Assembly (NCBI RefSeq): GCF_036322805.1
Contig: NZ_AP027272.1
Location: 2,604,001 to 2,668,000 of the forward strand
Origin: Planctobacterium marinum
GTDB lineage: Bacteria; Pseudomonadota; Gammaproteobacteria; Enterobacterales; Alteromonadaceae
Reading direction: 5' to 3'
DNA length: 64,000 bases
Part shown: piece by piece, positions 4,154-21,425 of the stretch
Layout: every line of letters begins with the position of its first letter
Numbering within the stretch: the stretch's first letter is position 1
The notes under the pieces: model-generated
Databases searched by the model: none
What the model saw: the letters and a program-made list of their open reading frames with translations, nothing else
Told to the model about the DNA's origin: nothing
Translations under genes and position numbers: made by a program

Positions 4154-4479
4154 CTCACCACCTTCCGTCAGTCACTTGTTAAAAAAGAGCTTTTATTTTT
4201 GTTGTTATACTGAACGCTTAAGAGCAATAAACCAGGCATAAATTTGCATAGAATTGCTTACTGTGAAACTTAACTCACAGACCGCGTTGTTATTGAGTTT
4301 TGCGTTTTTAAATCAACAGCGCGGCGTAATCTACACAAAAATTAACCAATTTAACACCGTAAATCTGATTATTTATTCGCTTATACGTTTTTCAGTTTAG
4401 TTTAGGTTAGAAATTTTTCCGTTGCTGGATTGTTTCGGTATTTATTATTACCAAACCTCAGCGGATATCAGGCAGGAGC
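4154..4479. other. Intergenic region upstream of the ThDP operon
   Basis: This 326-bp AT-rich stretch holds no credible gene. It must carry the minus-strand promoter of the ThDP/citrate-synthase-like operon. A TATAAC hexamer on the minus strand near 4207-4212 could be a -10 element, but no convincing -35 hexamer sits 16-18 bases upstream. No intrinsic terminator for the broken GGDEF/EAL gene is obvious. Confidence 0.4.
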
Positions 4480-6961
4480 CTAATATCGCTCAGTAATAAC
4501 ATTGATACCAAGGGGCTTGCTGATGTGATAGCCCTGTAAAAAGTTCACTCCCATCTTGCGCAATTCAAGTGCAGTTTCTTCGTCTTCCACAAATTCCGCC
4601 ACAGTGGTTTTGTTTAGCGCTCGGGCAACCTCACAGATGGACTTAACTAGTGCCCTGTCGATAGGGTTGTCTTTCATGTCTTTTACGAATGAGCCGTCTA
4701 CTTTAACGCTGTTGGCTGGTAGTTGTTTCAGATAACTAAAGGTACTAAAACCAGTACCAAAATCATCAATAGAGAACTCGCAGCCTAGTTCCATTAATTT
4801 TTTAATCATGTCTTGAGTTGCGCCTAAGTTGGTTAAACTAGCGCTTTCAGTAACCTCAAAAATGATTTGCTGTGGATGCACACCATACTGGGCTAACTTT
4901 TCTTCCACGAGCGGCAACAAGCGCTCATCACTGAAGGCTTGTGCTGAAAGATTGATGGCAACTTTTTTTGAGCACCGGGTATTTACTGATCATACTCATG
5001 GCTTTTGAAATCACCTGATGATCCAATAAATTGATATCTTCAACCCGTTCAATTGCCGGAATAAATTCACCCGGGAATATCAATTTACCATCAATTTCCA
5101 GTCTTACGAGTGCTTCAAAATAGTGGACATTGCGGGTTTCCGCATCCACCACTGGTTGAAAATGTAAAATAAGCTGATCTTTGCTGATGGCTTCTTGCAG
5201 AACGTGTACCCATTGTACTGAAATTTGAAAATCTTCTGTTTCTTTATCCGCTTTTTCGAACACATGCACCAAATTACGACCGCGTTTCTTAGCGACATAA
5301 AGCGCGATATCCGCTTGTTGCAAATAGGTTTCCGGCTCGGTTTGTTCACCGTTGATCTCCGTGGCACCTATACTACAACTGATCTTAAATATGCGATCAC
5401 CAAACTGATAATGACCTTGTTGCAACAGAGCGCAAATTTCGTTGGCAATATCGCGAGCTTCATGACGGTCGGTGCGAGGTAGTAACAATGCAAATTCATC
5501 ACCACCCACTCGACAAAACACGTCTGCTTCACGCTTTATTGACGATATCGCAGTAGCGACCTCTTTAAGAATAATATCTCCCTGATGGTGCCCTTGGGTA
5601 TCATTAATCACTTTAAAATGGTCTAAGTCCAGGTACAACAGCGAATGTACCACCTCTTGTGATTGGGCGGTTTCCGACAACCGAACAAGTTCGGTATCAA
5701 AGTAGTGGCGATTAAAAAGATTGGTTAAGGTATCGTGTGATGCCAGGTGGCTAAGTTGCATCTCAGCTTTTTTGCGGTCATCGATGTTGTCCAGGTTAAC
5801 CGTCACCCCCGATACTTTTCCTTTGCGATACAAATCGTTAAATTGTACCTCTACCCAAATGGCTTCACCGGATTTAATTTCTAACTGAAATTCAATACGC
5901 TTTGAGCCAGTTTGTCCTTCTAACATTTGGCTCATATGGTATTCGACATACTGTCTGGTATTGCCATCATCACCGAAAGCAAAATCAGCCAACGATCTTC
6001 CCATGGTATCTTCGCGAGAAAAGCCCGTCAGTAATACCCAAGCTTTATTAATAAACTTAATATAACCATCGGTATCCAGTTCCATAACGACTGTAGATAG
6101 GTGGTTTAGCAAACGAGTGTGGGCTTCTGATAGCTGCCGAAACTGCTCTTCCCGACGCTTGATGGTAATAACCTTTTCTTCAAACTGACTATTGCTTACG
6201 AGATAATTTTCCCTCTGGGAAGCGATAGCGATGACTTTCCTGAGCTGTTCGCCTTTGAAGGGTTTGGAGATAAAGTCCACCGCGCCTTGAATCAATAACT
6301 CTTCCGCCAATTCAGTACTGCCATGGGCGGTCATAATCACAACAGCTTGTTGGGGGTTCGCGGCCAAAACGTGCTTTAGTACTTCCCCACCCGACATTTC
6401 CGGCAGTTGCACATCCAACAAGACAATATCGAAGTGTCCGTCACGAAACTTGCTAACACCTTGTGTGCCGGTTGTGGCTATTTGTACCTTATAGTTGTTT
6501 TTTAAAAGTCTATGAGCCAATTCAGCAATATCAGGGTCGTCTTCCACCACTAACACCGACATACGGTTATCGGGCGTTTCCGTGGTATCAGAAAAGCTCA
6601 AAATCAAGTCAGGCAGTGTTTCAAGGTGTTCACAAGCAACAACGTGATTGATAGTAAAGGCATGTGCTGTGGTTTTAGCGATGTGTTCGCAGAATGTATC
6701 GGTAATGAGGATGTAAGGTGTTTCGGCGGGTACTCTAAATAAGTTGGCTCTTACCATACGTACCAGACGCCAGGCGTCCATTTGACCAATCAAGGTGTCA
6801 GAGACAATGACATCGAATTCTTGCTGCTTTAGCTTGGTTACTGCACTGCTAGCATCTGTTACGTGCAATACTTCTGCGTTGTGCTCTGCTAATAGTTCCG
6901 TTACGGACTGCCGCCTCTTCACACTGTCGGTGATCAGCAGTACTGAAATCGATGTCGCCAT
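4480..6961 (-). pseudogene. REC-REC-PAS-GGDEF-EAL protein, split by a one-base frameshift
   Basis: This is a c-di-GMP turnover response regulator. Two receiver domains (about residues 5-120 and 133-250, the second with LLDVQLP), a PAS domain (about 285-395), a GGDEF domain with intact RVGGDEF, and an EAL domain starting at YFEALVRL are in one frame (6961-4928). The rest of EAL (FEVTES, SIDDFGTGFS, KVDGSF, EFVEDEE, LQGYHIS) continues in another frame (to 4480). The frames join at seven A residues on the coding strand (plus-strand T7 at 4963-4969). With six A the frame reads through as KKVAINLSAQAFSDE, an expected EAL segment. It is either a real mutation, a slippery site or a sequencing error. 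If intact, it would be about 826 aa and cytosolic. Confidence 0.8.
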
Positions 6962-7058
6962 TCGTTTCCTTTCTTCAGATTGCTTCTGTTATTGGCATTT
7001 AAAGTTCACATACTAGCCGGAATCTTGGGAAACTAAAATACTCAACAGGTTTAATTGC

Positions 7059-7607
7059 TCAAATTCTGACATGTAACAACGACGGAGCCACCGCATCCGC
7101 CAGCTCACCACTAACTCCAGCTTTGTTATTTGAGATCAAAATGCACTTTTTAACCCCTGCCGCTTTACCGGCAATCATATCGGTGATTTTGTCGCCTATC
7201 ATCACCGATTCTGACAAATCCAAATCCAGTTCATGAGCTGCGGCGTAAAGCATACCGGGTTTTGGCTTACGACAATCGCAATCGACTTTGTAGTCACCAT
7301 AACCTTCTTGCGCGTGGTGCGGACAATGATACACGGCGTCAATTTGAATACCCTGCTGTTTAAACTCATTAAGCATGTGATCAGTTAGATACTCAAAATC
7401 CACCTCAGAATAGTAGCCTCGTGCAATACCGGATTGATTGGTAACAATAACCAATTTGTAGTCCATGGACATAAAGCGACGGCAGGCAGGAAATACACCA
7501 TCAAGGAATTCAAAATCATCGGGGCGAAACGTATATCCGTGGTCTTTGTTGATCACGCCGTCTCTGTCTAAAAACACCGCTTTGTGTTTTATTGTGGGAG
7601 TAGACAT
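7059..7607 (-). CDS. gmhB: D-glycero-beta-D-manno-heptose 1,7-bisphosphate 7-phosphatase
   Basis: A HAD-superfamily phosphatase that removes the 7-phosphate of heptose bisphosphate during ADP-heptose synthesis for the LPS inner core; cytosolic. The nucleophile motif FLDRDGVIN supplies Asp14 and Asp16, followed by VTNQSG, a zinc-type Cys/His cluster (CPHH then CDCRKP) and the acid motif GDKITDM. The length of 182 aa is typical for GmhB. The histidinol-phosphatase branch of the same family is the main alternative, but there is no his operon here. It appears monocistronic. Confidence 0.88.
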   Translation of the reverse strand: MSTPTIKHKAVFLDRDGVINKDHGYTFRPDDFEFLDGVFPACRRFMSMDYKLVIVTNQSGIARGYYSEVDFEYLTDHMLNEFKQQGIQIDAVYHCPHHAQEGYGDYKVDCDCRKPKPGMLYAAAHELDLDLSESVMIGDKITDMIAGKAAGVKKCILISNNKAGVSGELADAVAPSLLHVRI

Positions 7608-7681
7608 TACTGTAAATTATCTGGAAAACTTAGTCCCTAGCATACTCAAACTCGGGCGTTTGGCTACAGTGCAATGCAAGG

Positions 7682-7710
7682 AAAACGCACGTTTGCTGAA
7701 GAAACGTGCG
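7682..7710 (-). terminator. Intrinsic terminator of the valine operon
   Basis: On the minus strand a 9-bp perfect stem (CGCACGTTT / AAACGTGCG) with a 7-base loop is followed by TTTT. It lies 24 bases after the stop of the last operon gene (SDR). Confidence 0.75.
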
Positions 7711-7733
7711 ACAAGGTAATTTAACTACACCAA

Positions 7734-8495
7734 TTAAACGCGTGTACCACCATCTAATTCGATAACACGGCCAGTGAAGTAATCATTTTTGAAGATAAAT
7801 TTGGCGGTTTGGCCCAATTCTTCCACCTTCGCCAAGCGACGAAGTGGTACTGTACTCAGAAATTTTTCCATCATTTCCGGACGCATCTGGCGCGCCATTG
7901 CGGTGTCCACCAAACCCGGAGCGATACAGGCAGCGCGAATACCAAAGCGCGCTAACTCCTTACCCCAAGTAACTGTCATGGTAGCCACAGCCGCTTTAGA
8001 GGCAGAGTAATTGGTTTGTCCCATGTTACCGGCACGCGATACCGAGGAAACATTGATGATCACACCTTCACAGCCCAATTCTATCATCTGTGCGGCAGCT
8101 TCACGACCACACAGGAAAGTGCCAGTGACATTAACATCCAGTACTGACTGGAATTGCTCCAGGGACATTTTGCCCACCACTTGACCTTCTTTAACTTTCA
8201 ACAACATACCATCACGCATGATACCAGCACTGTTTACCAGGCCATTGAGTTGTTTGAAATCGTCGCGAATTTGCTTGAATACCGCTTCTACTTCCGCTTC
8301 ATTGGTGACATTAACTACATAAGGACGCGCTGTGATGCCCTTTTCTGAAAGTTCTGCCACAGCTTGATTTAGTGAGTCTTCTTGCATATCTAACAGTGCG
8401 ATATGCGCGCCTTCATCTGCTAACACATCTGCCATAGCGCGACCTAAGCCTTGCGCCGCACCTGTTATTGCAATTACTTTGTTTTTTAAGTCCAT
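7734..8495 (-). CDS. SDR family dehydrogenase, last gene of the valine operon
   Basis: A 253-residue classical short-chain dehydrogenase of the FabG/3-hydroxyacyl-CoA dehydrogenase type. It has TGAAQGLG for cofactor binding, NSAG, a conserved Ser (VSSVS) and the YSASK catalytic pair. An Asp (LLDMQ) after the second beta strand favours NAD over NADP. It lies 16 bases after mmsB and ends at an intrinsic terminator, so it is part of the mmsA operon. Its probable role is a 3-hydroxyacyl-CoA oxidation step in branched-chain catabolism, for example 2-methyl-3-hydroxybutyryl-CoA in the isoleucine branch. That assignment is inferred from context. Confidence 0.8.
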   Translation of the reverse strand: MDLKNKVIAITGAAQGLGRAMADVLADEGAHIALLDMQEDSLNQAVAELSEKGITARPYVVNVTNEAEVEAVFKQIRDDFKQLNGLVNSAGIMRDGMLLKVKEGQVVGKMSLEQFQSVLDVNVTGTFLCGREAAAQMIELGCEGVIINVSSVSRAGNMGQTNYSASKAAVATMTVTWGKELARFGIRAACIAPGLVDTAMARQMRPEMMEKFLSTVPLRRLAKVEELGQTAKFIFKNDYFTGRVIELDGGTRV

Positions 8496-8511
8496 AATTC
8501 TGCTCTAACTC

Positions 8512-9402
8512 TTATTTGTTTTGCTCAAACAACTGAAAAATACTGGAGAAGTCTTTGTTGCCTTGCCCTTGTGCGCTTAAAATTTGATAAAGATTTTGTG
8601 CCAACGCGCCCATTGGCGTCATAGATTGGCTTTGATTGGCCGCTTCCATAGCAAGACCTAAGTCTTTTTTCATTAAATCCACCATAAAGCCACCTTCATA
8701 GTTCTTTGAAGATGGTACATTAGGCAATACATCCGGGCATGGATTATAAAGCTCCAGGGTCCAGTTGCGCCCAGAGCTTTGCAGCATGATGTCGGATAAG
8801 ACTTTTGGATCAAGGCCGTGTTTGATACCCATCTGTAGTGCTTCTGATGTGCCCGTCATCAAGATAGCTAATAACATGTTATTGCAGATTTTTGCTACCT
8901 GACCTGCGCCAATATCGCCAGCATGAAAGATGTTTTTGCCCATACCTTCTAAAATCGGCTTGGCTGCAGCAAAACATGCTTCTGAGCCGCCCACTATAAA
9001 GGTCAGTGTGCCACCTTGTGCACCTGCAACACCACCAGAAACCGGAGCATCCACAAATTTAATATCCATTGAGGATAAATGCTCACCCACTTCTTTCGCT
9101 GATGCAGCATCGATGGTGCTGGAATCAATCACCATTGCACCTTTGGCAATATGCTTCGCTACTCCCTCTTGCGAGATGAATAGCGATTTAACATGCTTAC
9201 CCGCCGGTAACATGCTGATCACGAACTCTACATCAGTCACGACGTCAGCGGCTGTTGCCGCAGCACTGGCGCCTTCTGCTACCACTTTGGCTACATTGTC
9301 TGCAACCAAATCAAATACTTTGACACTGTGCCCGGCTTTAACCAAGTTCACCGCCATAGGACCGCCCATATTACCCAGTCCGATAAATCCAATCGTTGCC
9401 AT
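8512..9402 (-). CDS. mmsB: 3-hydroxyisobutyrate dehydrogenase
   Basis: Oxidises 3-hydroxyisobutyrate to methylmalonate semialdehyde in valine degradation, using NAD. The N-terminal Rossmann motif is GFIGLGNMGGPM. The substrate-binding signature DAPVSGGVAGAQ follows at about 120-131, then the catalytic Lys in GAGQVAKICNN. The length of 296 aa is standard. It sits between the HIBYL-CoA hydrolase (2 bases upstream) and the SDR, the order expected for the pathway, which separates it from tartronate semialdehyde reductases of the same family. Confidence 0.93.
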   Translation of the reverse strand: MATIGFIGLGNMGGPMAVNLVKAGHSVKVFDLVADNVAKVVAEGASAAATAADVVTDVEFVISMLPAGKHVKSLFISQEGVAKHIAKGAMVIDSSTIDAASAKEVGEHLSSMDIKFVDAPVSGGVAGAQGGTLTFIVGGSEACFAAAKPILEGMGKNIFHAGDIGAGQVAKICNNMLLAILMTGTSEALQMGIKHGLDPKVLSDIMLQSSGRNWTLELYNPCPDVLPNVPSSKNYEGGFMVDLMKKDLGLAMEAANQSQSMTPMGALAQNLYQILSAQGQGNKDFSSIFQLFEQNK

Positions 9403-9404
9403 GA

Positions 9405-10520
9405 TTATTCTCCTAATTTTGCCAGCGGATGTGTTTGCTTGGTCCAGGGACCGGCGAAGAAAGACTCGATAAAATCATCCGGCACATTCTCCTGAGCCGG
9501 GTACAACCACTGAGGCGCACCGTCTTTATCTATCAACAAGGCACGCACTCCTTCCTGAAACTCACCAGCAGACGCGGAGCGACACGCCATCACAAGCTCC
9601 ATGCGAAAACAATCCGCAAGTGCCTTGCCTTTACCTCGCTTGAGCTGCTCCCACACCAAACGTTGCGTAACTGGGGAACCGTTAAGCAAGGTTTTAGCGG
9701 CGCGGTTAAGCCACTTATCTTCGGTCTCTAACCACTTGCTGATACCGTTGATGATATCCGCTAATGACGCATGAGACATCAGTGTTTCAATCTCAGTATG
9801 ATATTTCGCGATATTGGATTCTGGCAGCTTCTGTGCCGATTTGAGGGACAAACTCGCTAACAGGTCTTCTATAGCATAGCGGGTATCAGTCAATTCAGAA
9901 TCCGCCAATTGCTCAACAAACGACTCAATAGTCACTTCAGCCAATGCATAGTCCGCCATACCTATCAGTTTGGCATCGGCAGCATTGATCTGTACCCCGG
10001 TTAAGCCTAGAAACAAGCCCATCTTATCTTGCAGGGTATTTAAGAAGTAACTGCCACCCACATCAGGGAATAAACCTATGGTGATCTCCGGCATAGCAAG
10101 GCGCGAAGTTTCGGTGACCACTTTGTGGCTGGCACCGGCAAACAAACCGATTCCACCGCCCATAATAAACCCGCTACCCCATACAATCAGCGGTTTGCTG
10201 TAGGTATGAATGAGATGATCTAACTGATACTCTTCGGTAAAGAATGTCTGTACCGACTCTGGGGTTTTGCCCGGTTCGGCTTTCATGGCGTTGTACAAAG
10301 ACACCACATCACCGCCAGCACAAAAGGCTTTATCACCCGCACCGCTTAACAGCACGGCCGAGATATTCTCGTCGGATTGCCATTGTTGCAGCTGCTCAGT
10401 AAGCAGGCGCACCATGTCCAGATTCAGCGCATTTAAAGCTTTCGGCAAGTTTAATTGCACATGGCCCAACTGGCCATGCTTTAACTTTACTATACTAAAT
10501 AAAACGGGAGCTTCACTCAT
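9405..10520 (-). CDS. 3-hydroxyisobutyryl-CoA hydrolase (enoyl-CoA hydratase/isomerase family)
   Basis: A 371-residue crotonase-fold protein of the HIBCH type, longer than the roughly 260 aa of a hydratase. It contains the oxyanion-hole motifs KAFCAGGDV and MGGGIGLFAG and the HIBCH-like segment PEITIGLFPDVGGSYFL. It releases CoA from 3-hydroxyisobutyryl-CoA, yielding the substrate of MmsB encoded next door. Spacing to mmsB is 2 bases and to the acyl-CoA dehydrogenase 15 bases. Database labels of plain enoyl-CoA hydratase are common, but length and context favour hydrolase. Confidence 0.88.
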   Translation of the reverse strand: MSEAPVLFSIVKLKHGQLGHVQLNLPKALNALNLDMVRLLTEQLQQWQSDENISAVLLSGAGDKAFCAGGDVVSLYNAMKAEPGKTPESVQTFFTEEYQLDHLIHTYSKPLIVWGSGFIMGGGIGLFAGASHKVVTETSRLAMPEITIGLFPDVGGSYFLNTLQDKMGLFLGLTGVQINAADAKLIGMADYALAEVTIESFVEQLADSELTDTRYAIEDLLASLSLKSAQKLPESNIAKYHTEIETLMSHASLADIINGISKWLETEDKWLNRAAKTLLNGSPVTQRLVWEQLKRGKGKALADCFRMELVMACRSASAGEFQEGVRALLIDKDGAPQWLYPAQENVPDDFIESFFAGPWTKQTHPLAKLGE

Positions 10521-10535
10521 TTTTTAACTCCCTTT

Positions 10536-11693
10536 TTAAAGTAACTCACCAGCGCCTTCGGCCAGTACGCGACGACCTACGATCAAACGCATGATTTCAT
10601 TAGTTCCTTCCAGGATCTGATGCACGCGCACGTCGCGTACATGGCGCTCTAGCGGATACTCCTGGATATAACCATAACCACCGTGAATTTGCAGGGCCTC
10701 GTCACACACTTTAAAGCCGATGTCCGTAGCGAAGCGTTTCGCCATAGCACAATAAGCAGTCGCTTCTGGATCATTACTGTCCAGTTTAAACGCCGCCAAC
10801 CGCACCATTTGGCGAGCTGCAACTAACTCAGTGGTCATATCGGCAATTTTAAACTGAAGTGCCTGGAAAGCCGCCAAAGGTTTGCCAAACTGACTGCGCT
10901 CTTGCATATAATTTTTAGCGGTATTCAGCGCTTGCTGCGCAGTACCGATAGAACAAGTGGCGATATTAATACGTCCACCGTCAAGGCCCTTCATGGCAAA
11001 AGTAAACCCCTGACCTTCATCACCTAGCAAGTTACCTACCGGGATGTGCACGTTTTCAAAGGTTACAAGACGCGTTGGCTGGGCATTCCAGCCCATTTTC
11101 TCTTCTGCTTTGCCATAGATGATGCCTTCAGCATCAGCGGGCACAACCACAGCAGAGATGCCTTTAGGTCCAGCTTCGCCAGTACGCACCATCACAACCA
11201 TTACATCAGTTTCACCAGCACCTGAGATAAACATCTTAGAGCCATTTAGCACATAATGATCGCCATCGCGTTTCGCGGTGGTGCGCAATGATGCAGCATC
11301 ACTGCCCGAGCCTGGCTCAGTTAAACAATAAGAGGCCAGCTTTTCACCCATTACCAGAGCTTCACACCACTGCTCTTTCACTTCTTCGGTGCCCCAGGTA
11401 GCAATCATCCAGGAGGCCATATTGTGAATAGTCATCATGGCGGTTGTAGCAGTACAGCCCATGGAAAGCTGTTCAAAAATAATAGAAGAATCCAAACGGG
11501 ATAAGCCCAGACCGCCTACTTCTTCAGGCGCATAAAGACCACAGAAACCCAGTTCACCAGCTTTTTGGATCACTTCTTTTGGAAAGTAATGCTCTTTATC
11601 CCATTTACCAGCATTAGGTGCCAGCTCCTGCTCAGCAAATTGTCTGGCAGTATCGGCAAAAGCGATTTGATCTTCTGTCAGATTAAAATTCAC
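10536..11693 (-). CDS. Acyl-CoA dehydrogenase, probably isobutyryl-CoA dehydrogenase
   Basis: An FAD flavoenzyme that oxidises isobutyryl-CoA (or 2-methylbutyryl-CoA) to the 2,3-enoyl-CoA. It shows YCLTEPGSGSDAAS in the middle domain and the usual C-terminal catalytic Glu in ILEGTNEIMR, as in short/branched-chain dehydrogenases and unlike the leucine enzyme at 20256. At 385 aa it has family length. It follows mmsA by 13 bases in the same operon, which supports the valine assignment. Confidence 0.9.
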   Translation of the reverse strand: MNFNLTEDQIAFADTARQFAEQELAPNAGKWDKEHYFPKEVIQKAGELGFCGLYAPEEVGGLGLSRLDSSIIFEQLSMGCTATTAMMTIHNMASWMIATWGTEEVKEQWCEALVMGEKLASYCLTEPGSGSDAASLRTTAKRDGDHYVLNGSKMFISGAGETDVMVVMVRTGEAGPKGISAVVVPADAEGIIYGKAEEKMGWNAQPTRLVTFENVHIPVGNLLGDEGQGFTFAMKGLDGGRINIATCSIGTAQQALNTAKNYMQERSQFGKPLAAFQALQFKIADMTTELVAARQMVRLAAFKLDSNDPEATAYCAMAKRFATDIGFKVCDEALQIHGGYGYIQEYPLERHVRDVRVHQILEGTNEIMRLIVGRRVLAEGAGELL

Positions 11694-11706
11694 AGCACAC
11701 TCCTTA

Positions 11707-13197
11707 TCAACGCAAGTTAATGGTCATGTTAGGACCAGTAGGAATATCGTCTTCAAACCAACGAGAGGTGATGGTTTTGGTTTCAGTGTAAAAACGCACA
11801 GCTTGTTTTCCGTATGCGTGCAGATCACCGAAGAAGGAGTTTTTCCAGCCCGTGAAAGAGAAGAATGGTAAAGGTACCGGAATGGGTACATTGATACCCA
11901 CCTGACCCACTTCAATTTCGTGTTGATATTTACGCGCAGCCGCACCGCTGGCCGTAAAGATAGAAGTTCCATTGCCATATGGGTTAGCGTTAACCAACGC
12001 AATAGCTTCCTCTAAAGTGTCAACACACATACAGCACAATACCGGACCGAAAATCTCTTCCTGATAAATGCTCATTTCAGCAGTCACGTTACTGAACAGC
12101 GTTGGACCAATCCAGTTACCGTTTTCGTAACCGGCTACCGTGCACTCAGAGCCGTCAACTAAACAATCAGCGCCCTGCTCTTTACCTTTTTGGATGTGTG
12201 CCAATACACGCTCTTTGGCAGCCGGACTGATCACCGGACCATAAGCGGCCGACTCGTCATCCCACAAACCTGGCTTAACCTCTTTAAATAGCGGTACAAG
12301 CTCTTCAATCCACTCTTGCGCACTACCCACAAATACCGCAACAGAAATTGCCATACAACGCTGACCGGCAGCACCAACAGATGAACCTACAAGGTTGTTT
12401 AATACCTGCGCCTTGTTAGCATCAGGCATGATCACGCTGTGGTTTTTGGCACCGGCGAAACACTGAGCGCGTTTCATGTTTTCAGTAGCAGTTTTGTAAA
12501 TGTACTGACCTACGGGCACCGAACCTACAAACGATACCGCTTTTATATCTTGGTGATGCAGTAAACCATCAACCGTGCTTTTGTCACCGTGCAATACGTT
12601 CAATACGCCTTTTGGTGCACCCGCCTCCATGAATAATTCTGCCAGCTTCATGGGCGTCATAGGGTCTTGCTCAGACGGCTTAAGTACAAAAGTGTTACCT
12701 GCGGCAATCGCCATTGGGAACATCCACAAGGGGATCATGGCCGGGAAGTTGAACGGCGTGATACCAGCACACACACCCAATGGCTGAATATAGCTGTAGG
12801 TATCGATACCGCGCGCCACGTTTTCAACGGTTTCACCCATCATCATAGCTGGCATATTGATAGCCTGCTCTACCACTTCAATACCGCGCCATACGTCACC
12901 TTTGGCATCGGCGAAAGTTTTGCCGGTTTCTTTACTTAAGATTTTGGCAATTTCATCGTGGTTTTCTTTCAGCAATGCCTGATAGCGCATCATCACACGA
13001 GCGCGCTCTGACACCGGCGTTTCGCGCCAGGTTTCAAAGGCGGCTTTGGCTGCCGCTACCGCTTTTTCCACTTCCATGGCTTCAGCCACAGGCGCAAGCG
13101 CGATAGTTTCGTTATTGGCAGGGTTAGTTACATCGATGGTTTTTGTGCTTTGAGAGGCGACGAATTCGCCGTCAATTAACAAGGGAACGGTTTGCAT
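11707..13197 (-). CDS. mmsA: Methylmalonate-semialdehyde dehydrogenase (CoA-acylating)
   Basis: Converts methylmalonate semialdehyde plus CoA and NAD to propionyl-CoA in valine catabolism. The aldehyde-dehydrogenase nucleophile lies in the MmsA-type motif [14 protein letters not shown], preceded by [12 protein letters not shown] and [13 protein letters not shown]. The frame extends to a TTG at 13206, but the ATG at 13197 gives 496 aa, the usual MmsA length, and a better spaced AAGAG. First gene of a five-gene operon. A LiuR-like box lies 58-76 bases upstream, with a TACAAT -10 candidate (minus strand, 13234-13229) between box and gene. Confidence 0.95.
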
Positions 13198-13255
13198 AGG
13201 GTACAAGCTCTTTTGTTAATGTTAAGAAATTGTAGCGACTTTAGCAGAGTTTTAA

Positions 13256-13577: not shown

Positions 13578-13847
13578 ATGAACGGACGTAGAGGTGATCA
13601 AGTTACTCATCACCGCACCTATGAAACAGCAAGCGATCGAAGAGCGAATACCCATTTAGCACAAGGGCAAACGAGGACTCGCTCTGGTTCGGTTGAAATT
13701 CGCCGTCGCTCTGGCTCGGTGGATCACTTTCACTACCACGAAAACCGCAACAGCACAGGTTTTATGGTGAGTCGTGGCACTCATACCGACCGCCATGGCA
13801 ATGTGACCCGCGGGCGTAGAAATGTCGACCCGTCGTATAATCCCTAA
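13578..13847 (+). CDS. Small Arg/His/Ser-rich hypothetical protein
   Basis: An 89-residue ORF of very biased composition: rich in Arg, His, Ser, Thr and Asn, with no Lys, Cys, Leu or Trp. A short internal repeat is visible (RTRSGSVEI then RRRSGSVDH), followed by a His-rich HFHYHENRN. There is no signal peptide or membrane segment. The ATG is preceded by AACAGG at ordinary distance. The bias suggests an RNA- or metal-binding, possibly disordered protein, but no family is recognised. It lies 148 bases before the borosin methyltransferase; co-function is unproven. It could be a spurious ORF. Confidence 0.45.
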   Translation: MNGRRGDQVTHHRTYETASDRRANTHLAQGQTRTRSGSVEIRRRSGSVDHFHYHENRNSTGFMVSRGTHTDRHGNVTRGRRNVDPSYNP

Positions 13848-13995: not shown

Positions 13996-14820
13996 TTGGC
14001 CACAAATAATGGCAGCCTGACAATTGCCGGGTGTGGATTACACCCGGGACACATGACACTGGAAACCGAAAGCCTCATCAAAAATGCTGAAAAGGTACTC
14101 TTGGTTGCTCCTAATCCACTATCAATCCAACATATAATTAGCCTCAACAGTACAACCGAACATTTGGGCAAGTACTATAACGAAGATGGCATATCTCGCC
14201 CCGATATCTACAAAAAGATGGCCAAACATATTATCGACCTGGTGCGTAGTGGTGTTCAGGTAGTTACCATTTTTTATGGCCACCCCGGTGTTTTTGTGAC
14301 CTCTACCCGCTTAGCCAGCGATGTTTTAAAGCAGGAGGGCTATCCGGTTAAAATGCTTCCTGGGATCGCAGCAGATGCTTGTTTGTATGCAGATCTTGAT
14401 CTCGACCCTGCTGACACGGGATGTCAGTCGTATGAAGCAACCCGTTTTTTACTGACCAAAAGAACGCCAGATACCAGTGCTGCTTTAATTCTATGGCAGT
14501 TAGGTTTAACCGGTGAGCATACGAGTGATCATTTCAAACCCGGGGAACAAGGACTTAAAGCGTTGAGTAAATTGCTGCAAGAATACTACCCTGCTGAACA
14601 CATGATCTGTATCTATGAAGCACCGACTCTTCCGGGTTTCCAACCGAGAAAAGATTGGATTGCAATTAGAGAACTCTCGGAAGCTGAGGTCAGTGTAATT
14701 TCAACATTGTACGTTCCAGCCTGCAATGAGTCTGTATTCGCTCAAGAGAGGCTTGAGTGGTTGGGCATATCAATTACTGATATTGACCATTGGAATGAAT
14801 CTCAAGAATTAACGAATTAA
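13996..14820 (+). CDS. Split borosin alpha-N-methyltransferase (SonM-like, TP-methylase fold)
   Basis: A SAM-dependent tetrapyrrole-methylase-fold enzyme that matches borosin backbone N-methyltransferases. Visible motifs: GSLTIAGCGLHPGHMTLE (6-23), the Tyr/Arg patch KYYNEDGISRPDIY (59-72), FYGHPGVFV (93-101), MLPGIAADACLYADLDLDP (120-138), CQSYEATRFLL (143-153) and LILWQLGLTG (164-173). The fungal OphMA has the same series with its peptide substrate fused at the C-terminus. Here the protein stops at 274 aa and the substrate is a separate gene 81 bases downstream, as in Shewanella SonM/SonA. The start is TTG with AGGGAG eight bases upstream; no ATG is available. Cytosolic. Confidence 0.9.
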   Translation: MATNNGSLTIAGCGLHPGHMTLETESLIKNAEKVLLVAPNPLSIQHIISLNSTTEHLGKYYNEDGISRPDIYKKMAKHIIDLVRSGVQVVTIFYGHPGVFVTSTRLASDVLKQEGYPVKMLPGIAADACLYADLDLDPADTGCQSYEATRFLLTKRTPDTSAALILWQLGLTGEHTSDHFKPGEQGLKALSKLLQEYYPAEHMICIYEAPTLPGFQPRKDWIAIRELSEAEVSVISTLYVPACNESVFAQERLEWLGISITDIDHWNESQELTN

Positions 14821-14848
14821 GCCAATTAAGTATTATGGCTTTAACTAA

Positions 14849-14869
14849 GTACTGCATCGAATGCAGTAC
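14849..14869 (+). promoter_or_regulatory. Intercistronic hairpin between borosin methyltransferase and precursor
   Basis: A perfect 9-bp stem, GTACTGCAT / ATGCAGTAC, with the triloop CGA. It is not followed by a T-run, so it is not a canonical terminator. It sits between the enzyme stop and the precursor ribosome site (GAGGA at 14889-14893). It may act as an RNA stability or processing element that raises precursor output over enzyme; that role is inferred. Confidence 0.6.
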
Positions 14870-14901
14870 AAAAACAGAAAGTAAAAACGAGGACATATTA
14901 T

Positions 14902-15177
14902 ATGGATAACTTAAGTCGCTTTTATCTTGAGCTGTCAATCGACGCCGCAAAATTACAAGCATTTAATTTTGCTCCCACTGAGCAAAAGCATACCATGTTA
15001 AGAGAAGCGGGCGTTGTCAATCCCGAAGAGATAATGGAACTAAACGAAGAAGCCGTGAGAAAAACGCTGGCCTCGAACCTAATCGCTTCTACTGGAAAAT
15101 GGCAAGGAGTTGAAACAAACGCGGGAAACACAGACAACCGTGATAACAGCTTTAGCATCCAAAAACAGACACACTAA
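14902..15177 (+). CDS. Borosin precursor peptide (SonA-like)
   Basis: A 91-residue peptide starting MDNLSRFYLELSIDAAKL, the pattern of the borosin binding domain, a helical leader (about 1-57, including REAGVVNPEEIMELNEEA) that docks on the methyltransferase. The C-terminal tail (about 58-91) is polar and Asn/Thr/Gln-rich (GKWQGVETNAGN to SFSIQKQTH) and would hold the residues N-methylated on the backbone. It lacks the hydrophobic core of omphalotin-type borosins, so the modified positions cannot be named. No protease or transporter gene is adjacent. A clear GAGGA lies eight bases before the ATG. Confidence 0.85.
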   Translation: MDNLSRFYLELSIDAAKLQAFNFAPTEQKHTMLREAGVVNPEEIMELNEEAVRKTLASNLIASTGKWQGVETNAGNTDNRDNSFSIQKQTH

Positions 15178-15185
15178 GCACAGAT

Positions 15186-18100
15186 GTGAATGTAATCATT
15201 AATAGAATGATAGCCGTATTGTTTATGGCTATCATTTCTTTTTCAATATCAGCTGTTACTGCTAATAAAAAGGCGCTTGAATTAAGCGAGCCTTCGGGAG
15301 ACTACTTTGCTAGCAAGGTGGAGGAATTAGCGCGAAAAAAACCTGAAGAAGCGTTAAAAATAGCAGCTCAATCGGAACAGTATTTTCAATCTAATGTTGA
15401 CCCCTCTAATCATGGTAGGGCACTAAACGGCGCTGCATATGCTTTTTATTTCCTGTCTAATTTTGAAAACTCTATGGCAAAAGCCAAGCAAGCCGAAACT
15501 ATCGCTTTGCAAAACAACCTTGGAAATATTTTAGCCAGATCACAAATGTTGCAGGGCAATGTTCTACAAAGTATCGGTGAGCACACACGAGCAATTAACC
15601 AGTATCTTAGTGCCGCCAAGTTTTACCAGAATACTAATAACCGACTCTATCTAAGTTACGTCTACAACAATATTGCTAATACGTACATAGAAGCAAAGTT
15701 ATACGCTTCAGCATTAGAATATTATGAGCAAAGTAACGAAATTATTCCTCAAAGTAGTGCGATCAAGGGAATAGCGGACACCCTGTTCAAGATGGGCGAA
15801 ATAGAAGACTCGCTCGGGTACTACCAACAGTCATTACAAATGTATAGATCCGAAAATGATTCTTTCGGCATAGCATTGATAAGAAATGGTCAAGGTGATG
15901 TGTATCTCGCAAAACAAGATTTTAAAAGAGCATTGGTCTTGTTTCGTGAAGCATTGAGTTTAGCTGAGGAAATGCAGCAAAAGTACACTGTTGAATATTC
16001 AACAAGAGGACTTGCCAAGTCATATTTAGGGTTAGAGCAATTAGATGAAGCTTCAAAGTGGCTGGAAAAAGCTCGCATGTTAGCAAAAGAAAAAAATGAC
16101 AATGTGGCACTGTTAAAAAATTTAAAAATTGCCTCTCAAATCCATAGGCAAAAAGGGGAATTAGAGAAATCAATTAAGACACTTATGGAATACCTTGAAC
16201 TTGAAACAAGTTATCAGGCTGAAAAAGACAAAACACAACTTGTAGTGTTACAAGCGCTGTTTGAAAGTGAGACTAAAGCGTTAGAAATTGAGCGATTAGA
16301 AGAGCAAAACAAAATTTTGCAACTGGAACGTACCGTAGAAAAGGAACGTTCACAACAAACCCAATTTATCGCTTTTACCCTGGTTTGTGCCATCTTGGCT
16401 TTGGCCTTTTGGATTTTTACCGTATCAAGGGAAAAACAACGGCTAGCAAGAGTTTCAGCTGAATTAGAAAAAGCCAAAGTTCAGGCGGAACATGCAACCC
16501 AAACAAAATCAGCATTTCTGGCAAACATGAGTCATGAGATCCGCACGCCACTTACCTCCATCATTGGCTACGCCGACAGTATCTTGCAGGGAGACATCCC
16601 GGCAAAAGAAGAACACCGGGTGATAAATATCATCTCAGAAAACGGAAATCATTTATTAAATGTCATCAGTGATATTCTGGATTTTACAAAAATAGAGGCC
16701 AATAAATTAGAATTTGAGCACATCTCTACCCCGCTCATTCCGCTATTGGCTCAAATTGAATCGGTAACCGGCAAACGGGCACGAGACAAAGGGTTGAGCT
16801 TCGATTTACATTTTCGCTACCCCTTGCCCAGTAGTATTATCACTGACCCCACTCGTCTGCGACAAATACTGTTTAACCTCACCAACAACGCCTTAAAGTT
16901 CACCGACAAAGGCAGTATCAGCCTGTCGGTAAAGACTACAGAAGAACAGTTAGTGATTGCAGTGCGTGATACCGGAATAGGTATCAGTAAAGAAAATCTG
17001 GCCAACTTATTCCAACCCTTTCAGCAAGCCGATGGCTCCATAAATCGCCGTTTTGGAGGTTCTGGTTTGGGTTTGTCTATCTCCCGTCATTTAGCGCAAG
17101 GCTTGGGTGGTGAATTAAGCTGCACCAGTGAAGCGAGCAAAGGCTCAGAATTTGTTGTGGCAGTTGAGCTGCAGCCAGCACCGGATTGTCGCTGGATAAC
17201 CTCTGGTGAAGAAGCCCGTGTCGTCACTAAAAGCGCGGAAACCGAAAAACAAAAAAGCCCTAGATTCAGCAATGCACGGGTATTGCTGGCAGAAGATCAC
17301 CCTAACAATCGGGAGTTAATCCGTTTAATGCTATCTCGAATGGGGTTGGAAGTGACGGATGTTGAAAACGGTTTACTAGCCTGCAATGCCGCATTAAAAG
17401 ACAGTTTTGATCTGATCTTTTTAGATATTCAAATGCCGGTGATGGATGGTCTGCAAGCGCTAAAACAAATCCGAAAAATCCATTCAGACACCCCCATCAT
17501 TGCCTTAACTGCCAACAATATGAAACATGAAATTGCGCAGTATCTGCAGGAAGGTTTTGATGATCACCTGCCCAAACCCCTACCTCGCGAATCTCTGGTT
17601 GCGGTATTGGAAACTCATCTGCACAGCCAAATTATTGAGCAAGATGACAATAAAGCAGAAACAAACGAAGATAGTCAGCAAGCCCAAAGCTGCACACAAC
17701 TGGCGGAAACACTAGATCAAGTGAAAATTCCAGATTTACCCGGCAGCGATGAAGATATGGTGCAGCTTATCGCCAGTTACTGTACTCAACTGCAAAAGGA
17801 TGTAGAACAGGCTACAATGCACTGGCAGGAAGAAAACTGGGAGTCTCTAGAAGAGCAGGCCCACAGTATTAAAGGTTCGGCGGCAAACTTTGGATTTGCG
17901 GTTATCGGAAACGTGTTTGATGAGATCGAAACCTGTCTAAAAGATAATAAAAGCGATATTGTCAGCAGCTTTATTAATGAAGCTCTGGGTAAAATGCAGC
18001 GTTATCTGGCGATTCCCGGCACCTATCCAGCCCTCGGTATTTTTAAGCATGATATCAGTGTGGAGAATTGGCACAATGCGTTAGTTAAGTTCTGCCAGCA

Positions 18101-18341
18101 AGTACAGCTAACCCTGCCGCAAACCAACAGCACCAACGAAGAAGAAGTGCTGCAACTGGCCTCAGACATCACCCAACTGCAAAAACAACTTTTGCAACTC
18201 GCTCTGCCCAAAGCTCACCTGTTGTGTACTCAAATTCGCAAGGCCATTCGCGAAAACTGCGAGATGGATATCTTACTGAAAAAACTCACACAACTCTCCG
18301 ACGAACTGCGCACCATCAAAGCTTTTTTAGAAACAAATTGA
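15186..18341 (+). CDS. TPR-containing hybrid sensor histidine kinase (TPR-TM-HisKA-HATPase-REC-HPt)
   Basis: A 1051-residue phosphorelay kinase. An N-terminal hydrophobic segment (signal/anchor) is followed by TPR-like repeats (about 30-340), a coiled coil and a TM segment at about 391-412. Then come HisKA with phospho-acceptor His450 (MSHEIRTPL), HATPase_c with N, G1 and G2 boxes (NLTNNALKF, DTGIGIS, GGSGLGLSI), a receiver with Asp747 (FLDIQMP) and an HPt domain with His893 (HSIKGSA). The TPR sensor probably faces the periplasm. GTG start; ATG 15207 is an alternative. It begins 8 bases after the borosin precursor, with no terminator between, so it is probably co-transcribed. No output response-regulator gene is adjacent. 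Confidence 0.9.
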   Translation: MNVIINRMIAVLFMAIISFSISAVTANKKALELSEPSGDYFASKVEELARKKPEEALKIAAQSEQYFQSNVDPSNHGRALNGAAYAFYFLSNFENSMAKAKQAETIALQNNLGNILARSQMLQGNVLQSIGEHTRAINQYLSAAKFYQNTNNRLYLSYVYNNIANTYIEAKLYASALEYYEQSNEIIPQSSAIKGIADTLFKMGEIEDSLGYYQQSLQMYRSENDSFGIALIRNGQGDVYLAKQDFKRALVLFREALSLAEEMQQKYTVEYSTRGLAKSYLGLEQLDEASKWLEKARMLAKEKNDNVALLKNLKIASQIHRQKGELEKSIKTLMEYLELETSYQAEKDKTQLVVLQALFESETKALEIERLEEQNKILQLERTVEKERSQQTQFIAFTLVCAILALAFWIFTVSREKQRLARVSAELEKAKVQAEHATQTKSAFLANMSHEIRTPLTSIIGYADSILQGDIPAKEEHRVINIISENGNHLLNVISDILDFTKIEANKLEFEHISTPLIPLLAQIESVTGKRARDKGLSFDLHFRYPLPSSIITDPTRLRQILFNLTNNALKFTDKGSISLSVKTTEEQLVIAVRDTGIGISKENLANLFQPFQQADGSINRRFGGSGLGLSISRHLAQGLGGELSCTSEASKGSEFVVAVELQPAPDCRWITSGEEARVVTKSAETEKQKSPRFSNARVLLAEDHPNNRELIRLMLSRMGLEVTDVENGLLACNAALKDSFDLIFLDIQMPVMDGLQALKQIRKIHSDTPIIALTANNMKHEIAQYLQEGFDDHLPKPLPRESLVAVLETHLHSQIIEQDDNKAETNEDSQQAQSCTQLAETLDQVKIPDLPGSDEDMVQLIASYCTQLQKDVEQATMHWQEENWESLEEQAHSIKGSAANFGFAVIGNVFDEIETCLKDNKSDIVSSFINEALGKMQRYLAIPGTYPALGIFKHDISVENWHNALVKFCQQVQLTLPQTNSTNEEEVLQLASDITQLQKQLLQLALPKAHLLCTQIRKAIRENCEMDILLKKLTQLSDELRTIKAFLETN

Positions 18342-18471: not shown

Positions 18472-19653
18472 TTACATCATTTCAACCGCAATGGCTGTGG
18501 CTTCACCACCGCCGATACACAAAGAAGCTACGCCTTTAGTTTTGCCAAGGCGTTTTAAAGCGTGTAAAAGAGTTACCAAAATACGGGCACCAGAGGCGCC
18601 AATAGGATGGCCCAGAGCACAAGCACCACCATTGACATTCACTTTGGCTTCGTCCAGTTCCAACTGGCGTACCGCTAACATCGTTACCATGGCAAAAGCT
18701 TCGTTGATTTCGAATAAATCTACATCATTCAACGACCATCCGGCTTTATCCATCAATTTTCGCATAGCGCCAACCGGAGCAACCGTAAAGTTTTCCGGTT
18801 CAATAGAATTGGTAGCATGAGCTACAATGCGCGCTAATGGCTGTAATCCCAATTCTTTGGCTTTAGACTCTGTCATTACCATGAGTGCTGCGGCACCATC
18901 AGAGATGGAGCTGGAATTCGCTGCAGTCACCGTGCCGTCTTTTTTGAATGCCGGGCGCAGGTTAGGAATTTTTTCTGGCATGGCTTTGGCGGGTGATTCA
19001 TCTTCACTCACTACCACATTACCTTTGCGGCCTTGGATCACTACGTCAGACACTTCATCTTTGAAGTAGCCTTCAGCAATTGCCGTTTTAGCTTTATCTA
19101 ATGAAGACAAGGCAAAGGCGTCCATATCTTCTCGGGTAATGCCTTCAGCATCGGCTGTAGCTTGGGCAAAACACCCCATCGCTTGACCGTCATAAGCATT
19201 TTCAAGGCCGTCTAGCATCATGTGGTCCAGCACCTGACCGTGACCCATACGGTAGCCGCCACGGGCTTTGGGTAATAAATACGGTGCGTTAGACATACTT
19301 TCCATACCGCCGGCAATTACCACTTCAGCACTGCCTGCTTTGATAAAGTCATGAGCCATCATTACCGCCTTCATGCCTGAACCACAGACTTTATTGATGG
19401 TGGTTACACCAGCAGACAATGGCAAACCGCCCGCTAATGCCGCTTGGCGGGCAGGAGATTGGCCTAATCCTGCAGGCAATACACAGCCCATGATCACTTC
19501 GTCTACCTGATTGGCATCAGCCTGACTATCGGCTAGTACGCTGGCGATGGCACCGGCACCTAATTCTGTACCCGTTAGCGGTGATAAACTGCCCATGAAG
19601 GCGCCCATTGGCGTGCGTTTGGCAGATACAATAACGATATTTTCTGTAGTCAT
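18472..19653 (-). CDS. Acetyl-CoA acetyltransferase (thiolase)
   Basis: Thiolase II family, 393 aa. The acyl-accepting Cys is in NKVCGSGMKAVM, the GHP motif in GGACALGHPIGASG and the final Cys in SLCIGGGEA. It cleaves acetoacetyl-CoA, or 2-methylacetoacetyl-CoA, at the end of branched-chain degradation. Divergent from liuR across a 208-base region with the LiuR inverted repeat, so probably in the same regulon. The frame also offers an ATG at 19659, but AAAGG is only two bases from it and eight from the ATG at 19653, which I prefer. Confidence 0.92.
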   Translation of the reverse strand: MTTENIVIVSAKRTPMGAFMGSLSPLTGTELGAGAIASVLADSQADANQVDEVIMGCVLPAGLGQSPARQAALAGGLPLSAGVTTINKVCGSGMKAVMMAHDFIKAGSAEVVIAGGMESMSNAPYLLPKARGGYRMGHGQVLDHMMLDGLENAYDGQAMGCFAQATADAEGITREDMDAFALSSLDKAKTAIAEGYFKDEVSDVVIQGRKGNVVVSEDESPAKAMPEKIPNLRPAFKKDGTVTAANSSSISDGAAALMVMTESKAKELGLQPLARIVAHATNSIEPENFTVAPVGAMRKLMDKAGWSLNDVDLFEINEAFAMVTMLAVRQLELDEAKVNVNGGACALGHPIGASGARILVTLLHALKRLGKTKGVASLCIGGGEATAIAVEMM

Positions 19654-19817
19654 TTTCATTACCTTTGCTTATTTTGCTGGCATTGTGATCCATCCCTACA
19701 ATCAAGGCGACTGTACTTTAGGACCATTGGCATCTTGTACAACATTCTGGACGCAAGCGATGACTTTGTCGAAATCGGTTGTAAATAGAATGTTGAAAAG
19801 TTGTCAGGGTTACTTTA

Positions 19818-19854
19818 CCTTTACGTTAACCCAATCCTTACGTGAACGTAAAGG
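19818..19854. promoter_or_regulatory. LiuR operator: inverted repeat in the liuR/thiolase divergent region
   Basis: The arms CCTTTACGTTAAC (19818-19830) and GTGAACGTAAAGG (19842-19854) are inverse at 12 of 13 positions, separated by 11 bases. A nested TTACGTGAACGTAA palindrome lies at 19838-19851. It ends 7 bases before the liuR ATG, consistent with autoregulation by a MerR-type protein. Confidence 0.7.
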
Positions 19855-19861
19855 TAAACCT

Positions 19862-20251
19862 ATGAGTGAACAAACTTATTCAATAGGTGAATTGTCAAAA
19901 GAATTTGACATTACGCCCCGCTCTATCCGTTTTTACGAGGAGCAAGGTCTGCTGGCGCCCGAAAGAGCGGGTCAAAGTCGAATCTACAACAAAAAAGACA
20001 GAGTTCGACTAAAGTTAATCCTGCGCGGTAAACGCTTAGGCTTTTCTTTGGCAGAGACTAAAACCTTATTCGAGCTTTACGACTCTCATCAAAGCTCCCG
20101 AATACAACTTGAAGAAATGTTACGCATGACGCACGAAAAACGCGCCATCATGAAACAGCAAATGGAAGACATTCAAATGCTGATGAATGAATTAAACGAC
20201 GTTGAACTGCGCTGTAAAGAAGAACTATCTGAATTAACTAAAGGTGTATAA
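19862..20251 (+). CDS. liuR: MerR-family transcriptional regulator LiuR
   Basis: A 129-residue MerR regulator with the N-terminal winged HTH ([20 protein letters not shown], then EEQGLLAP and SRIYNKKD) and a C-terminal dimerisation coiled coil. It is first in the liu operon and reads into liuA with four bases between genes. The frame is open upstream to 19547, but the ATG at 19862 has AAAGG before it and gives family length. LiuR controls leucine/isovalerate degradation genes; the operator next to it and the matching box before mmsA support this. Confidence 0.92.
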
Positions 20252-20255
20252 ATCC

Positions 20256-21425
20256 ATGAATACTCCCTACCCTACATTAAACTTTGATCTTGGCGAAGAC
20301 ATCGATGCCTTAAGAGAAGGTATTTACCAGTTTGCCCAAGGCGAAATTGCACCGCTTGCAGAAAAAGCCGACGAAGACAACGCCTTCCCCAATCAATTGT
20401 GGCCACAGCTGGGTGAAATGGGCTTACTGGGCATGACAGTAGCAGAAGAATACGGCGGCGTTGACATGGGTTACCTGGCACACGTAGTGGCCATGGAAGA
20501 AATCAGCCGCGCGTCTGCCGGTATCGGTTTGAGCTATGGTGCTCACAGTAACCTGTGCGTTAATCAAATTCACAAAAACGGTACGGCGGCACAAAAAGAA
20601 AAATACCTGCCCAAACTGGTCAGTGGTGAGCACATTGGTGCATTAGCTATGAGTGAGCCAAACGCCGGCTCTGACGTAGTCAGCATGAAATTGCGCGCCG
20701 AGAAAAAAGGCGATCACTATATTTTAAATGGCAATAAAATGTGGATCACTAATGGTCCAGACGCCAGCACCTTTGTAATTTACGCAAAGACCGATGTTAA
20801 TGGCGGCTCTAAAGGCATTACCGCCTTTATCGTAGAAAAAGGCTTTGCCGGTTTCTCCCAAGCACAGAAGCTAGACAAATTAGGCATGCGCTCTTCTAAT
20901 ACCTGTGAGCTGGTTTTCGAAGATTGTGAAGTACCTGAAGAAAACATCCTGGGCGAAGTAGGCGGCGGCGTACGCGTATTGATGAGCGGCCTGGACTATG
21001 AGCGTTTGGTACTTTCCGGTGGCCCTATCGGTATTATGCAGGCTGCCATGGATATCGTGGTGCCTTACATTCACGACCGTAAGCAATTTGGTCAGTCCAT
21101 CGGTGAATTCCAGTTGGTACAGGGTAAAGTAGCCGATATGTATACCCAAATGAATGCCGCTCGTGCTTATGTCTACACCGTAGCCAAAGCCTGCGACCGT
21201 GGTGAAACCACTCGTAAAGATGCCGCTGGTGCCATTCTGTATTCTGCGGAATTGGCTACCAAAATGGCATTAGACGCCATCCAGTTATTAGGCGGTAACG
21301 GCTACATCAACGAATACCCTACGGGTCGTTTATTGCGTGACGCTAAACTGTATGAAATCGGTGCAGGGACCTCTGAAATTCGTCGTATGTTGATTGGTCG
21401 CGAATTATTCAAAGAATCAGTCTAA
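20256..21425 (+). CDS. liuA: Isovaleryl-CoA dehydrogenase
   Basis: FAD-dependent first oxidation of leucine breakdown (isovaleryl-CoA to 3-methylcrotonyl-CoA), 389 aa. The catalytic Glu is in the isovaleryl-specific helix [14 protein letters not shown]. The position used by most other acyl-CoA dehydrogenases reads GAGTSE, without Glu, which is the known signature of this enzyme. It also has [15 protein letters not shown]. The start is ATG 20256 rather than the GTG at 20244 that overlaps liuR. Two hairpins follow the gene before liuB. Confidence 0.95.

Follow-up and report, generated by a model that had tools for sequence, protein, structure and literature searches.

The window, a 64,000-nt stretch of DNA, contains a split borosin locus in which the genes for a methyltransferase, a precursor peptide and a membrane sensor follow one another in this order (Table 1). 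Comparison with related loci shows the sensor gene to be linked to the precursor gene, and the sensor's TPR domain to diverge together with the peptide. We think it rather likely that the three genes form a peptide-signalling cassette based on a type IV-like split borosin, in which the methylated peptide would be read by its own TPR receptor. The original prediction for this DNA had correctly recognized the enzyme-peptide pair and had overlooked the third gene, that of the sensor, which starts 8 nt past the stop codon of the precursor.

Table 1. Positions of the cassette genes and their parts in the window.
Feature	Coordinates	Strand	Basis
Split-borosin alpha-N-methyltransferase, SonM-like, 274 aa, TTG start	13996..14820	+	PF00590 match, SonM match, catalytic residues kept
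Borosin precursor peptide, SonA-like, 91 aa	14902..15177	+	Profile comparison, predicted fold
Borosin binding domain (leader), about residues 1-60 of precursor	14902..15081	+	hhalign to Shewanella-type precursor profile; model matches SonA 9ch7
Candidate core, precursor residues 76-88 (NTDNRDNSFSIQK)	15127..15165	+	Asn-rich plus hydrophobic clade pattern; tandem unit in L134
Membrane sensor hybrid histidine kinase, 1051 aa: signal/TM1, TPR, TM2, HisKA-HATPase-REC-Hpt	15186..18341	+	
TPR sensory domain, about sensor residues 37-345, predicted periplasmic	15294..16220	+	Model pLDDT 92.7; divergence comparisons
HisKA + HATPase_c kinase core, sensor residues 441-663	16506..17174	+	
Receiver domain, sensor residues 699-808	17280..17609	+	
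Hpt domain, sensor residues 860-931	17763..17978	+	

The first gene product had been described as a TP-methylase-fold protein; its coordinates proved right and all the motifs quoted for it are present. In family scans, which covered four proteins from the set of ORFs between 9000 and 21000, this protein matches TP_methylase (PF00590) with 57.5 bits against a cut-off of 27.8. This broad family is the only one whose curated cut-off is passed, and none of the specific NCBIfam models comes near its own. Among PDB sequences, the closest solved relative of the enzyme is SonM (2.4e-50), followed by the fungal OphMA proteins (about 2e-42 to 4e-42 and weaker). Alignment with SonM yields identical residues at 96 of 257 positions. 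The SonM residues named in PMC8429565 were mapped onto the window enzyme: Y58, R67, Y71, Y93, F99, E146, W166 and E173 correspond to Y61, R68, Y72, Y94, F100, E147, W167 and E174, respectively, and three are replaced (Q178 by H179, R68 by Pro and Q55 by Gly). From these residues it is reasonable to predict that catalysis follows the route of SonM. Placement among the cobalamin or diphthine methylases, which the original prediction had named as an outcome that would speak against it, was also examined. SonM and OphMA remained the best solved relatives, and the cobalamin and siroheme models scored so far under their cut-offs that a cobalamin or siroheme methylase could be ruled out.

At E values up to 1e-20, the enzyme has relatives in 119 of 295 sampled genomes of the family and in 71 of 295 of the order, two samples that overlap and that both include the window's genome. 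The nearest named relative, with 85% identity, is found in P. marinum K7 (L005). Since enzyme relatives are widespread and the peptide is conserved beside the enzyme in related genera, neither of the two looks like a chance ORF; a chance small ORF was ruled out for the 91-aa peptide on the latter ground. In four loci (L086, L092, L098 and L133) two methyltransferase genes stand side by side within one cassette. Locus L176 contains a 1174-aa ORF (3340-6864, reverse strand) whose N-terminal part includes a methyltransferase domain of the borosin type; it lies outside the class, and the precursor and sensor profiles recognized neither partner in the 13 kb of this locus.

The precursor ORF was found where predicted, beginning with MDNLSRFYLELSIDAAKL. 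Alone, the 91-aa peptide gives no significant match in Pfam, NCBIfam or the PDB sequences, and a profile made from the ten relatives nearest to it fails to reach SonA in the PDB. Linking it to SonA required a wider alignment, a profile of the Shewanella-type precursors and the predicted fold. When the peptide was combined with 14 relatives occupying the same gene position, the resulting profile matched the Shewanella-type precursors over the leader (hhalign 96.4%, E 1.3e-9); the profile of the closer clade gave 89.9% (E 1.7e-6), and the Shewanella-type profile finds SonA at 9.6e-33. The model of the peptide has a mean pLDDT of 60.8, with values of 58-76 in the leader blocks. Among the three chains compared (Foldseek), its best match is SonA 9ch7 (Z 5.4, rmsd 3.4, 52 residues) and its second is LigAB (Z 3.8); borosin-binding-type domains also cap dioxygenases, as stated in PMC8429565. 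By profile and predicted fold, though not by single sequence, the N-terminus is a borosin binding domain of the SonA family.

The tail had been called polar and rich in Asn, Gln and Thr. The clade alignment agrees as far as an Asn-rich stretch is concerned, and reveals what this description missed: behind an invariant Trp and, in most members, the Asn-rich stretch comes a short alternating hydrophobic stretch (NIGRLGR and NVSMFGR in relatives, NSFSIQK in the window). By analogy with L63 and I65 of SonA, our best guesses for the likeliest methyl sites are F84 and I86. A precursor in L134 (6966-7286) carries its core unit twice (GNTDNTACQF, GNTDNTVSQF), and this tandem unit marks the likely core. 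In another class of precursors, represented by many relatives, a short hydrophobic stretch precedes a PAEDDE-like acidic tail; those of L088, L093, L102 and L123 adjoin GGDEF-type sensors. In locus L128 (about 6164-11099, oriented by the enzyme), one enzyme gene is followed by five genes for precursors and just one for a GGDEF sensor. Altogether, a SonM-like enzyme with its catalytic residues and a SonA-type precursor, recognized by profile and fold, bear out the proposed split borosin system. Assignment of the locus as a type IV-like split borosin, with predicted activity, is supported by sequence and model, and the enzyme probably methylates the backbone of the small peptide encoded beside its gene. 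The borosin pair itself is of known type, from which the locus departs by its kinase-type sensor and Asn-rich peptide.

In agreement with the original prediction, no protease or exporter was obvious by eye among the ORFs between 9000 and 21000. The cassette is flanked by valine-degradation-like genes on one side (8512-13206, reverse strand; named by eye from their translations) and by genes for a thiolase, a MerR-type regulator and an acyl-CoA dehydrogenase on the other (18472-21425; also named by eye). Upstream of the enzyme gene, an ORF of 89 aa rich in Arg and His (13578-13847, forward strand) has no Pfam or NCBIfam match. Neither this ORF nor the window's other upstream genes were matched within 5 kb upstream in P. 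marinum.

Linkage of the sensor was analysed in a set of 110 loci with 117 enzyme places, made up of 100 fetched regions, nine named loci and the window. The 100 regions were hand-picked by enzyme rank, mostly from the top of the family and order lists and with several close same-genus rows skipped, and are not a random sample. Duplicate loci (L074 of L009, L135 of L013) were dropped before pair statistics and Pfam scans. A sensor was counted as the next gene when the next ORF of at least 230 aa within 200 nt bore a recognized kinase or GGDEF domain.

A precursor recognized by its own profile lies within 1.5 kb of the enzyme at 105 of the 117 places (103 of 115 without duplicates), and 101 of the 115 enzymes have both precursor and sensor within 4 kb on their own strand. 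A sensor with kinase or GGDEF output is the next gene after 100 of 116 precursors (98 of 114 without duplicates), at a median distance of 8 nt. The 16 precursors having no adjacent recognized sensor include nine in multi-precursor loci (L111, L126, four in L128, L131, L162, L164), three located at the end of a contig (L134, two in L145), three whose neighbour is shorter and shows no recognized output (L152, L161, L166) and a doubtful one (L095). Enzyme places in L098 (twice), L104 and L115 have a GGDEF sensor and no profile-recognized precursor; at that of L147 neither was recognized. Within the 100 linked pairs, three are transcribed away from the enzyme and six have the enzyme downstream, identifying the precursor-sensor pair as the constant unit. 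Chance adjacency was rejected: with 45 GGDEF and 82 HATPase matches in the whole genome of the window, a random neighbour would rarely be such a protein. Other ORFs of at least 300 aa in the fetched loci match output-domain profiles in 45 of 392 cases, a figure that is an upper bound since some of these ORFs belong to cassettes missed in the first list. Outside the order, three of four enzyme matches show a precursor beside a GGDEF protein; the fourth, of another class, is a large fusion with neither.

In the window's sensor, an N-terminal signal or transmembrane segment and TPR repeats precede a second transmembrane segment at about residue 390, which leads into HisKA, HATPase, receiver and Hpt domains. 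Throughout the sensor set, the 15 residues past the second hydrophobic segment are strongly positive (mean +3.4), which orients the output towards the cell interior and the TPR domain, predicted to be periplasmic, towards the exterior. Sensory domains of the GGDEF type contain at least two cysteines in 58 of 58 cases and exactly two in 48, two being near-invariant; such a pair would fit a periplasmic disulfide, as expected from the predicted topology. Kinase-type sensory domains have no cysteine in 26 of 40 cases, and the disulfide argument is therefore not extended to them. In Pfam, large sensors match TPR_12 in 41 of 41 cases and HATPase in 40 of 41, and small sensors match GGDEF in 54 of 58 and TPR_12 in 32 of 58, other TPR models matching as well. 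The window's TPR domain is modelled as a TPR superhelix with a mean pLDDT of 92.7. Its top solved matches are eukaryotic LGN complexes (Z up to 30); the bacterial ones are the pheromone receptors Rap and NprR (Z about 23-26), several of them peptide-bound. Because TPR solenoids score well in general and LGN scores better, this likeness is confined to what the model says, that the domain can hold a peptide, and no more.

GGDEF domains are carried by 58 of the 98 sensors in the set, and the motif is intact in 57 of these 58. A REC-GGDEF gene follows the kinase gene in Lacimicrobium, Bowmanella and L086, at distances from a 4-nt overlap to a 25-nt gap. Ten regulatory-looking genes, picked by eye from the 48 found directly after sensors, comprised seven REC-GGDEF, one PAS-GGDEF, one lone receiver and one second TPR-GGDEF gene. 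REC-GGDEF was seen after 7 of about 40 kinase-type cassettes, the rest having no such neighbour or falling outside the scan. The window has no adjacent REC-GGDEF gene, and no clear detached orthologue was found in its genome (best matches 49% and 46%). With over half of the sensors carrying GGDEF and a few kinases preceding REC-GGDEF, cyclic di-GMP is likely to be the output in many relatives. Two GGDEF sensors occur in tandem after one precursor in L173 (1705-5697, reverse strand) and in L169.

Evidence that the peptide and its sensor have changed together comes from comparing the window with P. marinum. Identity is high in the enzyme (83%), the kinase core (88%), the receiver (83%) and the downstream thiolase (96%), versus 34% in the peptide (leader 32%, tail 39%) and 44% in the TPR domain. 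Within the sensor, identity rises sharply at about residue 350; the Hpt end is also divergent (46%). At the DNA level, the divergent block begins roughly in the final portion of the enzyme gene and runs as far as the second transmembrane segment, and the same block appears in four of five further chosen pairs, the fifth being diffuse. Bowmanella shows the same pattern (enzyme 85-88%, kinase 76-87%, TPR 39-41%, tail 53-61%), and in Lacimicrobium both partners are conserved (TPR 79-86%, tail 81-87%).

Pair statistics were computed on 98 cassettes, which provided 91 pairs with an enzyme identity of at least 75%. Peptide identity tracks that of the TPR domain once enzyme and output domain are accounted for (partial r 0.76 over the 91 pairs); the value is 0.79 for the last 22 residues of the peptide and 0.71 for the rest. 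The output domain adds nothing given the TPR domain (-0.15). Pairs share cassettes and are not independent, so the test is the permutation and not the number of pairs: 2000 permutations within groups, with a mean of 0.46 and an sd of 0.05, yielded no value as high as the observed one. Control kinases were drawn from 20 region pairs matched by eye, which gave 19 reciprocal kinase pairs and, once the core identity had to reach 75% and the N-terminal alignment 100 residues, 11 pairs. The difference between core and N-terminal identity ranges from -8 to 21 points in these 11 kinases and is 44 points in the window's sensor; one control kinase below the length filter has 55% over 65 N-terminal residues and 94% in the core. 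Variability is not concentrated in the inner TPR helices: in 7 of 7 pairs, the A helices, assigned by eye, vary less than the B helices. A private signal-receptor pair (pherotype) would show just such rapid joint change of peptide and TPR domain, which suggests that the peptides serve as chemical signals.

Under the signalling model, the methyltransferase would N-methylate the peptide on backbone amides of its C-terminal stretch. The tail would be cleaved off and exported, and the mature peptide would bind to the sensor encoded next door, within the periplasmic TPR superhelix, whereupon the kinase would signal. More tentatively, and with the balance slightly tipped against it, the gammaproteobacterial split borosins at large could be widespread N-methylated pheromones with their own periplasmic, Rap/NprR-like TPR receptors, controlling cyclic di-GMP through GGDEF or kinase outputs (at least in some genera together with REC-GGDEF) and diversifying jointly into private pherotypes. 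Against a signalling role speak the lack of an obvious exporter or protease nearby, the adjacency of the variable DNA, a leader that co-varies nearly as well as the tail, the divergence of Hpt, which makes the TPR domain one of several variable parts, the greater conservation of the inner TPR helices, the better structural match to LGN, the control kinase whose short N-terminus diverges too, the missing REC-GGDEF neighbour in the window and the 16 of 116 precursors that are unlinked.

Other readings of the locus were weighed against these data. The enzyme could be a TP-methylase other than a borosin one, with the 91-aa ORF unrelated to it. The generic PF00590 being the only family above its curated cut-off would agree with this, as would the silence of the peptide alone and the failure of the close-clade profile to reach SonA in the PDB; however, with SonM and OphMA as the best solved relatives, the SonM residues kept and the peptide tied to SonA by profile and fold, we hold this to be highly improbable. 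An antimicrobial or other secreted effector, whose production the TPR sensor merely regulates or for which it detects envelope stress in self-protection, is unlikely. Joint diversification is also known from toxin-immunity pairs, regulators are frequent in RiPP clusters, and the acidic tails of many relatives suggest several product classes. Yet the sensor is fixed beside the peptide rather than the enzyme, its TPR domain varies in step with that peptide, and inspection by eye revealed neither an exporter nor an immunity gene beside the window's pair.

Since peptide and TPR domain adjoin in the DNA and may be exchanged as a block, co-variation could also arise without binding. Joint divergence would then be a by-product of block recombination, involving the precursor and the TPR half, and of fast evolution, with no contact between product and sensor and a function unrelated to peptide sensing. 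The variable parts are indeed adjacent, and in several pairs their boundaries are rather sharp; the leader co-varies much as the tail does, and the Hpt region varies too. But the conserved flanks (enzyme, kinase core and the thiolase at 96%) demand a reason why this block should be replaced, and the 11 control kinases, which are orthologues from the same two genomes, display nothing comparable to the 44 points found here. We regard this explanation as quite unlikely, and retain the signalling cassette as the preferred reading.

In the accessible open literature, no signalling role for borosins is assigned among the matches listed, and joint divergence of a borosin peptide and a sensor was not found in the accessible texts. 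Crone et al. 2023 are said to have reported a bacterial borosin product, and that paper and the survey of Imani et al. 2022 may mention the sensor neighbour. GGDEF is a labelled domain in a scheme of borosin architectures, according to the Figure 1 legend of PMC11395268; the GGDEF-borosin association has thus already been drawn, and novelty of the sensor link is unproven. In 2021, no type IV borosin pathway had yet been tied to a final natural product (PMC8429565), and the words diguanylate, GGDEF, histidine kinase and tetratricopeptide are absent from the main text of the same paper. Bacterial split borosins are numerous, and a co-diverging sensor gives them a concrete, testable function, with the peptide as signal. 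If true, N-methylated ribosomal peptides would be used for communication in Gram-negative bacteria, often in connection with cyclic di-GMP, and the cassettes would supply many natural ligand-receptor pairs.

The closest known system is SonM-SonA of Shewanella oneidensis (PMC8429565), which shares with the window a discrete methyltransferase, a separate precursor with an N-terminal binding domain and the catalytic residues. Compared with SonA, the window's precursor has about 20 additional residues, a larger leader, a spacer rich in Asn and another core. At L165, a locus with a near-SonA precursor, the next gene encodes a 596-aa sensor of the same build whose output is GGDEF, whereas that of the window is a hybrid kinase. 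The methyltransferase domain is homologous to that of OphMA, of the omphalotin-type fused borosins; unlike these, the window encodes enzyme and precursor separately, and its tail has no long hydrophobic core.

Gram-positive bacteria and their phages encode Rap and NprR, which are cytoplasmic, and RRNPP receptors are defined as soluble and cytoplasmic, with phosphatase or DNA-binding activity. They resemble the window's sensor in having a TPR superhelix of comparable size and a receptor gene beside the peptide gene. However, the TPR domain of the window is membrane-anchored by two hydrophobic segments and joined to a HisKA-HATPase-REC-Hpt output (GGDEF in others), and its peptide is predicted to be N-methylated. 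The sensor thus falls outside the soluble, cytoplasmic RRNPP group; its mode of action may be RRNPP-like, and it is not filed as RRNPP. In the agr and comQXP pherotype loci, a modifying enzyme, a peptide and a sensor kinase are encoded together, and the peptide diverges jointly with the sensory half of the kinase. The window presents the same combination of genes and the same kind of joint change, but with a different enzyme chemistry, a different sensor fold, Gram-negative hosts and, in many relatives, a cyclic di-GMP output.
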